A stretch of DNA of 56,347 bases, taken from NCBI GenBank assembly GCA_902536695.1, contig CACAYQ010000004.1, positions 1-56,347 on the forward strand, read 5' to 3'. The notes below the pieces were generated by a model. That model worked only from the letters and a program-made list of their open reading frames with translations. It was not told the DNA's origin and made no database searches. The stretch is from an uncultured Bacteroidota bacterium (GTDB taxonomy: Bacteria; Bacteroidota; Bacteroidia; Flavobacteriales_D; Parvicellaceae). The first letter of the stretch is position 1; each line of letters begins with the position of its first letter. Both the position numbers and the translations under genes were made by a program. Positions 6,638 through 36,494 of the stretch are shown here, in pieces.

Positions 6638-6754
6638 AAAATTTATCATTCCTCATTAGAAGTATATTATATTTAAAGTCAATTTTAAATAACAGATTTG
6701 AAAGCATTGAATTTTTAGATTTTAAAGATTTTGTATTAAAAAATAAAGAAAATA

Positions 6755-7150
6755 GATGCTTTTATTAGTGGCAAAAAATTAAACAATGGTGTTTATAGAA
6801 ATGAAGAAGGTATTCAAATATTACCTATAACTGAAATAATTTCTGAGGATGAATTCTTTGATTTCGAGGCTAAATATAAAGGCCAATCTAACGAAGTTAC
6901 TCCCGCTAACATCTCCAATAATTTGAGTAAGAGAATTAAAGATTTAACTTTTAGGATTTTTGACATTTTTGGCATGAAGGGGATAGCGAGAATGTAATAA
7001 ATAGTTAATGAAGAGGGAATACCTTTTTTGATAGAGATTAATTCAGTGCCTGGCATGAGTAAGGAAAGTATTGTGCCGCAGATGGCTTATATTGATAAAG
7101 TAAATTTGGGAAAATTATTCAAAAAAATATTAGAAACGAATATTACTTAA
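6755..7150 (+). pseudogene. ddl: Decayed C-terminal fragment of D-alanine--D-alanine ligase (ATP-grasp)
   Basis: Frame at 6755: DAFISGKKLNNGVYRNEEGIQILPITEIISEDEFFDFEAKYKGQSNEVTPANISNNLSKRIKDLTFRIFDIFGMKGIARM**IVNEEGIPFLIEINSVPGMSKESIVPQ; two in-frame stops (TAATAA) where family has D-Y/F; N-terminal half missing. Confidence 0.88.
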
Positions 7151-8060
7151 TTAGGGATTCTATTTCAAATAATTTTTGCTTATGAATGATTAAATAATTA
7201 AAGTAATATGGTGGTTTTTGGAAATATTTAATTCTTTCTAATTTTATTAATGAATCATTTTTCAACAAAAAACAAAACCAGTCTTCGTTAAAAAAAGAAT
7301 GAATTTTGTTAGCAATTTCTACACTTAAAATCTCAATTATAATCATAGGCTTAAAAATATCTAATGAGAATTTCATTCCATATAAAACTTCTGGTTCGTG
7401 CATCTCAACATCAATTTTAATCAAATCAACATTATCTATTCCATTTTTCTCGATGTAATAATCGAATGTATTTACTTTAACTTGGTACTCCATAATTTTA
7501 CCATTATATCCGTCCCAGTCCTTTAACATCAAGTTGGAAAGTGATGCGCTAGTTTGATTTTCATCGGGGACATCATAAAATATTGACTTGCCATTTTCAT
7601 TAGATAATGCTATTTTTTCACAATTAATATCAAATCCATTAATTTCATTATTTGTCAATAGTTTTTCGAATGTGTTTTTTGAAGGTTCAAATGCATACAG
7701 TAATGATTTAGAATTTGCAGCTTTGGCAACTAAACTATAAATACCAGTATTAGCTCCAATATCAAAAATCACTCTTTCTTTTTGAACTAGATATTCGAAT
7801 AAAAAACCAGTTTCTCTTTCCCAAGAATTAAATAGTCCTTTCCAAAATATTTCATTTTCAATAGTACCACCAAAAGCTTTCATTTTGAAGTTTTTTTTTG
7901 ATGATAAATACACATTGAAAGTACCTTTTATTTTTAAGTCTTTATAAAATTTATCAATTGGGAAAAAAGGTGTTTTTTTGAGTAAATGAAAAAAGAAGTT
8001 CCATTTAGGAATTAAAAATAAAATAAATTTATACACAAAACTTTTCATTACAATTATCAA
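7143..8060 (-). CDS. FkbM family methyltransferase
   Basis: VIFDIGANTGIYSLVAKAAN...YAFEPSKNTFEKL...VDLIKIDVEMHEPEVLYG; MKSF at 8048 is an alternative start. Confidence 0.9.
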   Translation of the reverse strand: MIIVMKSFVYKFILFLIPKWNFFFHLLKKTPFFPIDKFYKDLKIKGTFNVYLSSKKNFKMKAFGGTIENEIFWKGLFNSWERETGFLFEYLVQKERVIFDIGANTGIYSLVAKAANSKSLLYAFEPSKNTFEKLLTNNEINGFDINCEKIALSNENGKSIFYDVPDENQTSASLSNLMLKDWDGYNGKIMEYQVKVNTFDYYIEKNGIDNVDLIKIDVEMHEPEVLYGMKFSLDIFKPMIIIEILSVEIANKIHSFFNEDWFCFLLKNDSLIKLERIKYFQKPPYYFNYLIIHKQKLFEIESLIK

Positions 8061-28998: not shown

Positions 28999-30847
28999 AT
29001 GTGCGGTATCTCTGGTTTTATTTCCAAAAATTTCGATAAAGCTGATTTAGTTAGAATGACTAAATCGCTGAGCCATAGAGGACCAGACGCATCAGGGCAA
29101 TTTTTTGATTCTGAAAAGGGAATAGCACTGGGCCATAGGAGATTAAGCATTTTAGATCTAAGTGATACGGCTAACCAACCTATGTCTTCACATTGTGGTA
29201 GGTATGTCATGGTTTATAATGGAGAAGTTTACAATTTTAAAGAGATTGCTAACAGATTAAAGAAAACGAATTGGAAAACAAGTTCAGATTCAGAAGTTAT
29301 TTTGGAGGCCTTTGTAGCATGGGGAATCGATTTTATTCATCAGTTAAATGGTATGTTTGCTATTGCTATTTATGACAAAAATGAAGATAAACTTTTTCTT
29401 TTTAGAGACAGAATGGGGATTAAACCGCTGTATTATTTTTATAATGAAAAAGACCTCATTTTTTCAAGTGAATTGAAAGCGATTTGTGCTATTAAAAAAA
29501 AACTTAGAAACTAATGATAATGCCATATACGCCTACTTACATTTAGGCTACATACCAAGTAATCAAACCATTTACAATCAAGTATTTAAAATAAGTCAGG
29601 GCTGTTTTTTAACTTATCAAAAAGACGAAATTTCAAAAGAATCTTATTGGAATGTAGAAAAAAAAGTAAAAAAAGAAGTAAATCGAAATTTCACTAAAAG
29701 TAAACAAGAACTAAAATTATTGTTACAAGAATCCATTGAAAAAAGATTGATAAGTGATGTGCCTATTGGTACGTTTCTAAGTGGTGGAATAGACTCCTCC
29801 ATTGTAACTGCTGTTGCACAAGATGTAAATAATTCTCCTGTTAATACGTTTTCAATTGGCTTTGATGATAAAAAACATAATGAAAGTATTCATGCAAAAA
29901 AAGTAGCCAATTACTTAGGTACCCATCACAGCGAATTCATACTAAAAGAACAAGACGCCATAGGTGAAATAGAAAATATTATAAATCATTTTGATGAACC
30001 TTTTGCGGATTCTTCTGCTCTTCCCACTATGCTAGTTTCAAAAATGGCAAGAAGACATGTTACCGTTTGTTTATCTGGAGATGGAGGAGACGAATTGTTT
30101 ATGGGATATGGAGCATATAAATGGGCTAAGAGGATTAATAATCCCATTTTGAGGACACTACGTTTACCTATATCAAAGTTGCTGTATATATCTTCCAGAA
30201 ATAGAAACAAAAGAGCAGCTCAAGTATTTAATAGCCCCTTTAAAAACTGGAAAAGTCATATATTTTCTCAGGAACAGAATCTATTTTCTGAACTAGAAAT
30301 TAATGAACTCCTTAAAATGAATCATGATAACCTAATCGTTAATAATTTAAATTCAACTGTAGAACTAAAACGAAAATTTTCTCCCTCTGAACAACAAGCT
30401 TTTTTTGATTTAAACTATTATTTAATTGATGATCTTTTGGTTAAAGTAGATCGTTCATCTATGTATTCTTCTTTAGAAGCACGAGTGCCTTTATTAGATC
30501 ATAATGTTGTAGAATTTGCGCTAAACCTAGACCAAAAGTTCAAAATAAATAAAGGGGAACAAAAGTACATCCTAAAAGAGTTGACTTACGATTACATCCC
30601 TAAGAAAATAATGGAAAGGCCAAAATGGGGGTTTTCCATTCCACTTGAAAAATGGTTAAAAAATGAACTAAATTATTTAATTACAAAATATCTAAACGAA
30701 GATTCCTTAACTAAAACCAATATTTTAAATAAAATTGTCGTTTCAAACCTGTTAAAAAGATTTCATAACGGAGAATCATATCTTTATAATCGAATTTGGA
30801 GTCTAATTATACTCCAAAGATTTCTTACTAAGCACCTTGATTCCTAG
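28999..30847 (+). CDS. asnB: Asparagine synthase-like amidotransferase, frame disrupted at A9 tract 29494-29502
   Basis: ORFs 28999-29514 and 29486-30847 are N- and C-terminal halves; A8 restores ELKAICAIKKNLETNDNAIYAYLHLGYIPSNQTIY; MCGISGF, GTFLSGGIDSSIV, LSGDGGDELFMGY. Confidence 0.88.
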
Positions 30848-32178
30848 ATTGTTTAAAAACTAAATAAATCATACTAAAGAAGAAAGGAACTAGAGGGGTT
30901 TTATACCGCACTAGTGCCCCAAAATTGGTACCGGCAATACCCACTCCAAAAGCAAACAAAAGAGAAAAAATAAAACAATAAAGTAAAAAAGGTTCATTCC
31001 ATAATATTCTTAGCAGCCTAATAGGAGAAGTACGAACTAAAATCGTAATGGTAAAAAATGATCATTATCGTATTTTCTATTACAGAAAGCACCATGGTTG
31101 GACTTCCTATTTCCCAAAATAAAGGGCGAAATAAAGCAGTGAAAATTGCCAATGGAGCAACAGAAATAAGTCCTCCAAATGAACCGTCTAACTCTCCAAT
31201 ATTATAATTATTACCTCCGTATTGATCTTCCCTCAATAAGTCTTCTTGAATCACTTGAGCTTGCTGAATGGCCGAATCCATATCTCCATAAACTCCAATT
31301 ACGGACGATAAGTTTTGAGAAATATAGAAAGCTGACAACACTATAAAACCAAAAATTACCGGAAAAACAAATACTTTAATTAAACTGGATTTTATGTTTT
31401 TTAAATAAGCACTATTTATCCACAGTAACATTCCAGGTATTAGTGAAACAATGATATAAGCTTTTATATTTATAATCAAAAAGGCATTTAATAACATAAA
31501 AATGAAATTCCGAAAAAGTTTCTTTCTAATGATAAATATGTGATAAAAATTTGAGGTAATCCAACATGTTGCACCTAGAACATAACTATCTTTCATAACA
31601 CCTCCTCCCCAAAAAATTAAGGATGGTAAAAAAAGAATTAAATAGGCAAATATTCTCGAATTTCCAGTATATAGCGTGTTAAATAGTCTGTACAACTTCC
31701 ATATACCAATGTAAGAGAAACAAGCTGTGAGAAAACTGGTTATAAAGAAACTTTTAGCTCCCAAAAAGTATAATGGGACGGAAAGACGAGAAACTGAAAA
31801 TGTATTTGGATCCTTCCACATGTAATGAGGAGGAAAACCGGTTCCAGCATTAAAACTTTGCCATGAATTAAAATAACTATCTGTGTTAAATAAAACAGCT
31901 AGACCTTTTTCAATGTCCTGTTCTATTAAATTACCTATCGCTTGAGTACCTAAAAAATAATTTACGGTATCACCCCCTTCATAATAAAAAAGATAGATAA
32001 TACAAAAACCAGTAACTCCTAATAGTTTAAATAATAATCCGTAATTAAAATAGTTGTATTCATCATATTTTTTTATATAAAATGTCTTAATTATAGAGCT
32101 AATTGTAAAAATTAACAAAATGTATAAAGGAACTAAGAAAAGTTCATTTTGTGATGTGAATTGGTTTATGCTTTGCAA
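30828..32178 (-). CDS. Multi-TM polysaccharide protein (EpsG/Wzy-like), C-terminus frameshifted at A6 31053-31058
   Basis: ORF 31018-32178; removing one base of the + strand A6 continues as ...ILVRTSPIRLLRILWNEPFLLYCFIFSLLFAFGVGIAGTNFGALVRYKTPLVPFFFSMIYLVFKQSRNQGA* to stop at 30828. Confidence 0.65.
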
Positions 32179-32215
32179 ATCAAAGTACTTTGTAAAGCTA
32201 AATTAAGATTTTTAT

Positions 32216-33464
32216 TTGATAAATAATAGATTTGCGGTATTGAAAAATCAAAAACATATTGTTTATTGCTCGTATGATGGACTACTTGATTCCTTAGGAA
32301 GGTCTCAAATTTTACCTTATTTAGAAGGTCTCAATAAAAACTCAAAATGCAAGTTTACCATTATTAGTTTCGAGAAAATTCATGATCAAAATGAGTTTAA
32401 AAAATTTAAAGAATTTTTAACCTCAAAAGATCTAGATTGGATACCGCTTAACTACACCAAAAAACCACCCATACTATCTACCATTTGGGATATTCTTAAA
32501 TTAAGAATAAAGCTAAAAAAAGTTCTCAAAACCCAAAAAATAGATCTCATCCATTGCAGAAGTTACATTACTTCATTGGTTGCCCTTAGTTTTAAAAAAA
32601 AGTATGAAATTCCATTTATTTTTGACATGCGAGGATTTTATGCTGATGAAAGAGTGGATGGAAAACTTTGGAATAAGAATAAATTTCCTTTTAATATAAT
32701 TTACAGCTACTTTAAAAAGAAAGAAACAGCATTTTTACAATATGCTGATTACACTATTAGTTTAACACAAAATGGTAAAAAAGAAATAAAATCGTGGGAA
32801 CTGCCAAATCAATCTCCAATTTCAGTAATACCATGTTGTACTGATGAAAAATTATTTAACAAAGAAAATGTGAAAAGCATAAGAAATGATATAGGTTTTG
32901 TTGAAGATGACTTTGTAATTTCCTATGTGGGATCAATTGGCACTTGGTACATGATAAATGAGATGCTTGATTTTTTTCAAAGAACTTACAAACAAAATAC
33001 CAAAAGCTAAATTTCTATTCATTACAAAGGATGACCCAAAATTAATTTTGAAAAAAGCTGACGAAAGGAATATTGATATTAAAACAATTAAAATTCAACC
33101 GTCATCAAGAGAAATGATGCCATCTTACATTGGCGCAAGTAACTTTTCGATATTTTTTATTCTCCCAGTTTTTTCTAAAAAAGCATCATCTCCTACTAAA
33201 ATGGGAGAAATCATGAATTTAGGGATTCCAATTATTTGCAATTCTGGTGTTGGAGATGTAGATGAAATTATGAATGAATGCATGCCTGAACTACTAATTA
33301 ATAACTTCTCTAAAAAAGAATACAGAAGAATAATAAATTTCATAGGAAATAACCCAACGATAAATGGAGATAAAATAATTAGTACTTCTAGGGAATATTA
33401 CTCATTAATAAAGGGAGTCAAAAACTACGAAAAAATTTATAATTCAATAAAATTATTTAAATAA
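32216..33464 (+). CDS. Glycosyltransferase family 4, frame disrupted at T7 32971-32977
   Basis: ORFs 32216-33010 and 32958-33464; T6 restores MINEMLDFFKELTNKIPKAKFLFITKDDPK; HIVYCSYDGLLDSLGRSQILPYLEGL. Confidence 0.85.
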
Positions 33465-33515
33465 AAGATAGGATTTTGATAAATTTTAATTTGTTGTATG
33501 AAATTTATTATCTAA

Positions 33516-35107
33516 ATGAATAAAAAGAAATTAATAAATTACTTTACCATTATTAAATATAAGTTCCTGATGAAAAAATTCAAGCCTATAATTATTATTA
33601 TTTTAGTTCTTTTTATTTTTATTTCTGGAACCTATTCAGGTATTTATTTACATCGCGAATATAACTTCACAAGTTTAAAAGTTTTTCTAGTTGATAAGTT
33701 TAGAGTTAATAATTTTTTAAGAGGTTTTAAGGGGAAGCCAGAAAATTTAAAATTAATAATTAAAGATAAAGACTTAAAGACAATACATGAATATAGAAAA
33801 ACTGCAATTAAAAATGGTGTTATTTCTGAAAATTTGAAAAATTATTTTGAAGCTAAATGCATATTTAATACAGATACTTTTCCTGCTAAAATTAAAATTA
33901 AAGGCGATTTCCCTGACCACCTTGCTGGTGAAAAAATCTCATTTAGAATTAAATTAAAAAATAAAAAACTTATCAAAGGGATGTCATCTTTCTCTATTCA
34001 AGACCCAAAAACTAGAAATTATATATATGAATGGGTTTTTCATCAATTTTTTAAATTAGAAAAAATTACTTCCTTAAAATATTTCTTTTTGAATGTTATT
34101 GTTAATGATGAAGAAAAAGGAATATATGCAATAGAAGAATTTTTTAATAATGATATGCTGATCTCTAATAAAAAACAAATATCACCTATTATTAAAATAT
34201 CTGAAGAAAATCTTTTCTTTGAGAATAACTGTACTCATTGCAAAGATCATAATGAATTAGTAGATGAACTTTATTTAAAAAATGATATTCAATTTTATAA
34301 TAAAAAGTCGGTTTTAAAAGATTCTAATCAAAGAAAGTTATTTGTTGAAGCTAAAGAATTACTTTCAAAATTTAGGTCTGGTGATTTAACTACTCATCAA
34401 GTTTTTAATATTCAAAAAACTTTCAAAAACATATGCAATTTCTGACTTATTGCATAGTCCACATTCGCTTACCTGGAATAATTGTAGATTTTATTACAAT
34501 CCAAATGAAAAACTTCTTGAAATGATCCCTTATGACAGCAATAGTGGTGATTTCAATTCAGAAAATACTATCACATCTTATGATTTGTTTTTTGGAGATG
34601 AAGGAATGTATTTATTTAATCAACAAATTTTTAACGATTCAATTTTTCTGAGTTCATATTTTTCACAACTTAATATTATTTCAAATAGAAAATTCTTAAG
34701 TGATTTTTTTTCTAAAATTAATCATAATCTTCAGAAGCAAATAGATATTTTGTGTATTGATGATTATGATTTTAATTATGATTTAAGAAATAAAATTTTT
34801 AATAGACAATTAAGTTTACAAAGATTTCTAGACGAACCAAATGCATTATCAATAAGAATTACTGATTGTAATAAACTAGAAGTTGGTAATAAAACCACAA
34901 AACCTCTAATAATTTATAGTGTAATTAATAAAAAAAAATGAACAATTATTACAAAACTCTTTTGTTTTAAACCCAAAGAAACAAATTTCTGAAATTAATT
35001 TTCAAAGAACTAATATTTCTAATTTCTCAAAAGACGAAAACCTGTTTTTTGAGTATAGCATTATTGGCTTAAACAAAAGGTATAGAATGGAAATAAAGTT
35101 ATTCTGA
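33516..35107 (+). CDS. CotH kinase-like protein, frame disrupted twice
   Basis: ORFs 33516-34445 and 34450-34941 plus an extension; losing one A near 34414-34429 gives ...KTYAISDLLHSPHSLTWNNCRFYYNPNEKLLEMIPYDSN; losing one A in A9 34930-34938 gives VINKKNEQLLQNSFVLNPKKQISEINFQRTNISNFSKDENLFFEYSIIGLNKRYRMEIKLF*. Confidence 0.75.
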
Positions 35108-35139
35108 CGAATAATTAATTTTAAAAATTATTTAGCAAT

Positions 35140-35613
35140 TTAAACATGATGATACTTCTCCCCTCTCAAAATCGAAAATCCCCTGTAAAGCTGCTCTTTA
35201 AAAATTAGCCTTACCATTTGATGAGAAAAGGTCATTTTAGAAAGGCTTAATTTAGAATTAGCTCTTTTATAAACCTCATCATAAAAACCATAAGCTCCTC
35301 CAATTACAAAGACCAATGATTTTAGACCACAATTCATTTTTTGTTGAAGAAACTCAGAAAATTGAAGAGAGGAATATGATTTACCCTTATCATCAAGTAA
35401 AATAACATGGTCACTATTTTCTAGTTTTCCCAAAATCAATTGACTTTCTTTTTTCTTGAGCTCACCTTCGCTCAGCTTTCCTGCTTGTTTTATCTCTTTA
35501 ACAATGATTTCCTCAATCTTAATGTAATGCGATAATCGCTTTTCATACTCCCTCTCTCCTTCCAACAAATATTTTGTATTGGTTTTCCCTACCACAATGA
35601 GCTTAATTTTCAT
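35140..35613 (-). CDS. rlmH: 23S rRNA (pseudouridine1915-N3)-methyltransferase RlmH
   Basis: MKIKLIVVGKTNTKYLLEGEREYEKRL...LVFVIGGAYGFYDEVYKRANSKLSLSKMTFSHQMVRLIFKEQLYRGFSILRGEKYHH. Confidence 0.97.
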   Translation of the reverse strand: MKIKLIVVGKTNTKYLLEGEREYEKRLSHYIKIEEIIVKEIKQAGKLSEGELKKKESQLILGKLENSDHVILLDDKGKSYSSLQFSEFLQQKMNCGLKSLVFVIGGAYGFYDEVYKRANSKLSLSKMTFSHQMVRLIFKEQLYRGFSILRGEKYHHV

Positions 35614-35617
35614 TTTT

Positions 35618-35655
35618 CAAATGTAATGGAATTACCAAACAAAAATATAGCTTTG
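35618..35655. promoter_or_regulatory. Putative divergent -7 elements for rlmH (-) and nadC (+)
   Basis: CAAATGTA 35618-35625 (= TACATTTG on - strand) and TAGCTTTG 35648-35655 (+); both match TAnnTTTG; -33 elements not clear. Confidence 0.35.
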
Positions 35656-35659
35656 CATC

Positions 35660-36494
35660 ATGACCATACCACAATTTGTTCAATTAGCCATCCAGGAAGA
35701 CATCAAAGTAGGAGATCATTCTGCATTAGCCTGTATTCCTAAGAATGCTAAAGGGGAAGCTCAACTGTTGGTAAAGGGAGAAGGTATTATTGCAGGAATA
35801 GAAATAGCCAAACAAATTTTTGCTGAATTTGATCCTTCATTTGAATTTGAGAAGTGTTCATCAGATGGAGATTTCATTAAAAAAAGGAGATATTGCTTTT
35901 AGAATTCATGGATCATCTCAATCGTTGTTAGGAGCGGAACGTTTGGTGCTTAATGTAATGCAGCGTATGAGTGCCATTGCTACACTAACGCATAAATATG
36001 TTAAAGCCTTAGAAGGATTGCCCACTAAGGTATTAGACACCCGAAAAACAACCCCTTTAATTCGCTTTTTGGAAAAAGAAGCGGTTAGGATAGGTGGCGG
36101 TGTTAACCACAGAATGGGATTGTATGATATGATCATGCTTAAAGACAATCATATAGATTTTGCTGGTGGTATAGCAGAAGCTATTCAGCTAACAAGAAAA
36201 TATTTATCAAAAGAGAAATTAGATCTTAAAATTGAGATTGAAACACGTGATTTAATAGAAGTAAAAGAAGTACTTAAAGTGGGTAATATTCAACGCATCA
36301 TGTTGGATAATTTTAGTTATTCAGATTTGACCACAGCGGTGAAATTAATTGAAGGGAAATATGAAACAGAAGCTTCGGGTGGAATTAATTTAGATACAGT
36401 GCGGCATTATGCTGAATGTGGTGTGGACTATGTCTCCGTAGGAGCCTTAACCCACTCTGTACACAATATGGATTTAAGTTTAAAAGCGATTTAA
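35660..36494 (+). CDS. nadC: Nicotinate-nucleotide pyrophosphorylase (carboxylating), frame disrupted at A7 35879-35885
   Basis: ORFs 35660-35902 and 35820-36494; A6 gives DGDFIKKGDIAFRIHGSSQSLLGAERLVLNVMQRMSAIAT; DTRKTTPLIRFLEKEAVRIGGGVNHRMGLYDMIMLKDNH. Confidence 0.95.

Follow-up and report, generated by a model that had tools for sequence, protein, structure and literature searches.

We found six single-base frameshifts clustered within ∼6.4 kb of the window, the whole 56,347-nt stretch analyzed here, and concluded that they are very probably sequence errors and that the region at ∼29–36 kb is a poorly supported, badly polished patch of consensus. We favor this reading because the breaks follow position, the affected genes are otherwise clean, their orthologues are intact, and the assembly elsewhere is nearly free of frameshifts. 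As biology, the cluster is almost certainly not a real feature. The shifts are almost certainly sequencing or assembly errors and should not be taken as new biology; likewise, no biology should be read from the genes that look split or "lost" at 29–36 kb, among them nadC. The window is contig C4 of the draft genome G000 (1.70 Mb, 115 contigs, 62% complete); judged by nadC, its nearest named relatives are Flavobacteriales metagenome-assembled genomes.

Frameshifts were called by frameshift-aware protein-to-DNA alignment of intact proteins from relatives onto the window. Homology alignment served as the main test within the window because a coding-frame HMM was only ∼45% sensitive (107 of 240 simulated one-base insertions caught). 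A sequence-only reading of this DNA had reported six one-base-excess shifts affecting five of six consecutive genes, and the alignments to intact relatives agreed (Table 1), the second shift in the cotH-like gene being called with one reference. All of the A/T runs it had named were found in place, and every break moves the frame by +1.

Table 1. Genes of the 29–36-kb region and their frameshifts, in window coordinates
Gene	Position	Strand	Frameshift
asnB-like (GATase_7 + Asn_synthase)	28999..30847	+	one +1 shift at A9 run 29494–29502
EpsG/Wzy-like	30828..32178	-	one +1 shift at or beside 31053–31058 (coding strand T6)
GT4 glycosyltransferase	32216..33464	+	one +1 shift at T7 run 32971–32977
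CotH-like	33516..35107	+	+1 at 34414–34429; second probably at A9 run 34930–34938
rlmH	35140..35613	-	intact; full-length Pfam SPOUT_MTase
nadC	35660..36494	+	one +1 shift at or near A7 run 35879–35885

Pfam domains are distributed accordingly in three of the genes: GATase_7 and Asn_synthase fall on separate adjacent ORFs in asnB, Glyco_transf_4 and Glycos_transf_1 lie on different ORFs in the GT4 gene, and QRPTase_N of nadC is itself split across ORFs, cut at ∼51–54 of 82. Alignment to orthologues from G007, a genome of the same family, placed a single +1 at 29495 in asnB (residues 1–608 of 612; 64% identity) and at 31058 in epsG (residues 1–447 of 452; 59% identity), and a +1 at 32973 in the GT4 gene (70% identity). 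For nadC, G007 and other orthologues gave a single +1 at 35874 (residues 1–277; 77% identity). These identities (59%–77%) are similar to that of the intact rlmH. The shifted epsG frame continues to a stop at 30828, so that epsG and asnB overlap convergently, as they do in G007, and an aligned conserved site in the GT4 gene reads T6 in G007 versus T7 in the window. In the cotH-like gene, the first +1 was placed at 34414–34423 with six CotH references from relatives. The second was placed at 34931 with a single reference (L160), another (L156) putting it at 34787, close to the end of its alignment; the third frame spans 34940–35107. The direction of the shifts is secure from these alignments, and the exact base is in part ambiguous: the extra base of epsG may sit beside the run rather than in it, and any base in ∼35868–35885 could be the extra one in nadC. 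The claim that rlmH is the only intact gene of the interval also stood, with no shift in its alignment to G007 and other relatives. No premature stop occurs when each piece of the six genes is read in its own frame (∼2,000 codons).

A comparison with related genomes, which the sequence-only reading had proposed, showed that asnB, epsG, GT4, rlmH, and nadC follow one another in the same order in G007, all as intact ORFs, with cotH absent. Orthologues in G007 and other relatives are intact and in a single frame. Among genomes of the same genus, none spans the locus. The only one with nadC is G002, whose contig C78 (L015) stops inside that gene at ∼11704, near the border of the window's bad patch, as if assembly breaks down at the same border.

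The other ∼50 kb had been described as without a comparable case, and a scan with relatives' proteins wherever homologues existed bore this out, calling no genuine further shift. A split at 54.9 kb traced to G010, a reference that is itself broken, and an HMM candidate at 42.1 kb consisted of two ordinary neighboring genes (EI24; TPR/PD40). To set the background, the coding-frame HMM was applied to 1.26 Mb of this assembly, a total that includes the window. It returned 46 frame switches that had no ATG close by, four of them inside the patch. Those outside were mostly ordinary gene boundaries, dismissed by reading the junctions and not each by homology; two were credible lone frameshifts. One is probably a shift of the other sign (−1 or +2) and falls in a lectin-C/SASA esterase gene (contig C13, L196, ∼6650–6720, minus strand). 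The other affects a large MAM/fn3 surface protein with a Por secretion tail (contig C34, L214, ∼7455–7516), in which a C7 run carries a +1; it is possibly either an error or a phase-variable run.

HMM-detected events thus number four in ∼7.5 kb against ∼2 in 1.25 Mb (Poisson p ∼1e-9). Given the sensitivity of the HMM, the true background is perhaps ∼4–5 lone shifts per 1.25 Mb, compared with the patch's six in 6.4 kb. Of the A/T runs of ≥5 in the window, six of 107 are affected in the patch genes versus none of 548 in the other ORFs (Fisher p = 1.7e-5). All six shifts are insertions (p = 0.03). The sequence-only reading had drawn on this shared sign in proposing a bad assembly patch; that argument is weak on its own, and it is the clustering, the clean genes, and the intact orthologues that uphold the proposal.

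The breaks track position and not run length. Four of the six lie in runs of 5–7 and just two runs reach nine; outside the patch, intact ORFs of ≥300 residues hold ∼7,500 A/T runs of 5–11, including 259 of 8–11. With thousands of equal or longer runs in intact ORFs, length does not explain the breaks. This bears on two biological alternatives raised by the sequence-only reading, both of which came out much less likely than error, the runs being mostly short and the clustering unexplained. If RNA polymerase slipped on the runs, some transcripts would yield full-length product. The genome is AT-rich, the broken genes are otherwise intact, and two runs are A9; Blochmannia and Buchnera, both AT-rich endosymbionts, offer precedents in which a gene with no other damage has a single indel at an A/T run (PMC3017870). 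Those runs, however, are typically long, the genes are scattered genome-wide, and some are conserved between species, whereas the window has mostly short runs in one cluster that is absent from relatives. Many bacteria show selection against slippery runs, typically once these reach about nine A or T (PMC1088944), a length that only two of the six runs attain. The genome has hundreds of longer runs that leave the frame undisturbed, the orthologues stay in one frame, and slippage offers no reason for a cluster in 6.4 kb, leaving it extremely unlikely. Phase variation often targets surface glycan genes, and a change in run length could toggle such genes in the population, the assembly having caught the off state. 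The runs (5–9) are short and no longer than thousands elsewhere in the genome, so none stands out as unusually long, and it is implausible that consecutive genes, nadC among them, switched off independently at six sites; we find this explanation scarcely credible.

True recent inactivation, with real frameshifts arising in surface-polysaccharide genes under phage selection or relaxed constraint, for example, and reaching nadC too, strikes us as improbable. Loss is common among surface-polysaccharide genes, and very recent mutations would show no further damage. Yet six insertions stand here against zero deletions and zero nonsense codons in ∼2,000 codons, with none of the varied damage expected of pseudogenes, such as nonsense codons, deletions, or lost conserved residues; a core NAD gene is among those broken; and the rest of the window shows nothing similar. 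Inactivation could also draw on similar loci that are broken in G004, G010, and G014. Insertions and deletions both occur in the clusters at their polysaccharide loci, frequently away from runs and in other genes as well, and several other stretches of these genomes are cleaner. Poor consensus fits such clusters at least as well as decay does, and a special breakage of the locus in relatives was set aside. That the asnB–epsG–GT4 locus has been repeatedly and truly inactivated by frameshifts across several members of this flavobacterial family, the window being a fresh case, is very unlikely. The dense clusters lie at L173 1–6400 (G004), L167 (G010), and L177 7200–9900 and L178 4500–13600 (G014), and the epsG-like copy of G014 contains a ten-G run.

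A faulty patch of consensus would account for what was found: clustered homopolymer indels, otherwise intact genes, intact orthologues, and the core gene nadC broken together with surface genes. Consensus at ∼29–36 kb probably rests on few or unpolished reads, giving one overcalled run length per ∼1.3 kb; if read support is low, variation among strains at a polysaccharide locus may be the reason. Homopolymer indel errors are known to fragment genes in draft assemblies (PMC12007338; for platform profiles, see PMC4719071), and the window resembles these cases in its one-base homopolymer indels, otherwise intact genes, and intact relatives, but differs in that its errors are insertions only and confined to one 6.4-kb patch. 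The indel clusters at polysaccharide loci of the related assemblies G004, G010, and G014 also speak for an error patch, and polysaccharide islands are preferential failure points of long-read and short-read metagenome-assembled genomes (PMC8430335). The surface-polysaccharide region at 29–36 kb likewise adjoins core genes, as do the poorly assembled (replacement) flexible genomic islands described there, and the bad stretch takes in the start of nadC; those islands are reported as gaps, whereas here the contig continues and the consensus is faulty. Against an error patch, not all platforms typically produce insertions alone, the indel clusters of related genomes carry both signs, and the patch must be exceptional, because the rest of the assembly looks clean. 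The insertion-only sign is compatible with several sequencing platforms. The suggested source in insertion-biased long reads is conjectural: nanopore errors are biased toward deletions (PMC4719071), and the broken loci of relatives show both signs.

False frameshifts may gather in surface-polysaccharide loci of metagenome-assembled genomes, where they would mislead work on phage resistance, phase variation, and pseudogenes.

On the question of whether the cell needs a working nadC, neither NadA nor NAPRTase was found in the G000 assembly, which is only 62% complete, and a search of it for NadB gave a sub-cut-off match in a 675-residue frame that is probably succinate dehydrogenase. Elsewhere in the window, the segment at 6752–7135 (plus strand) matches only residues 193–319 of a 324-residue protein in relatives and, judging from this partial match, is apparently the leftover of a truncated gene.
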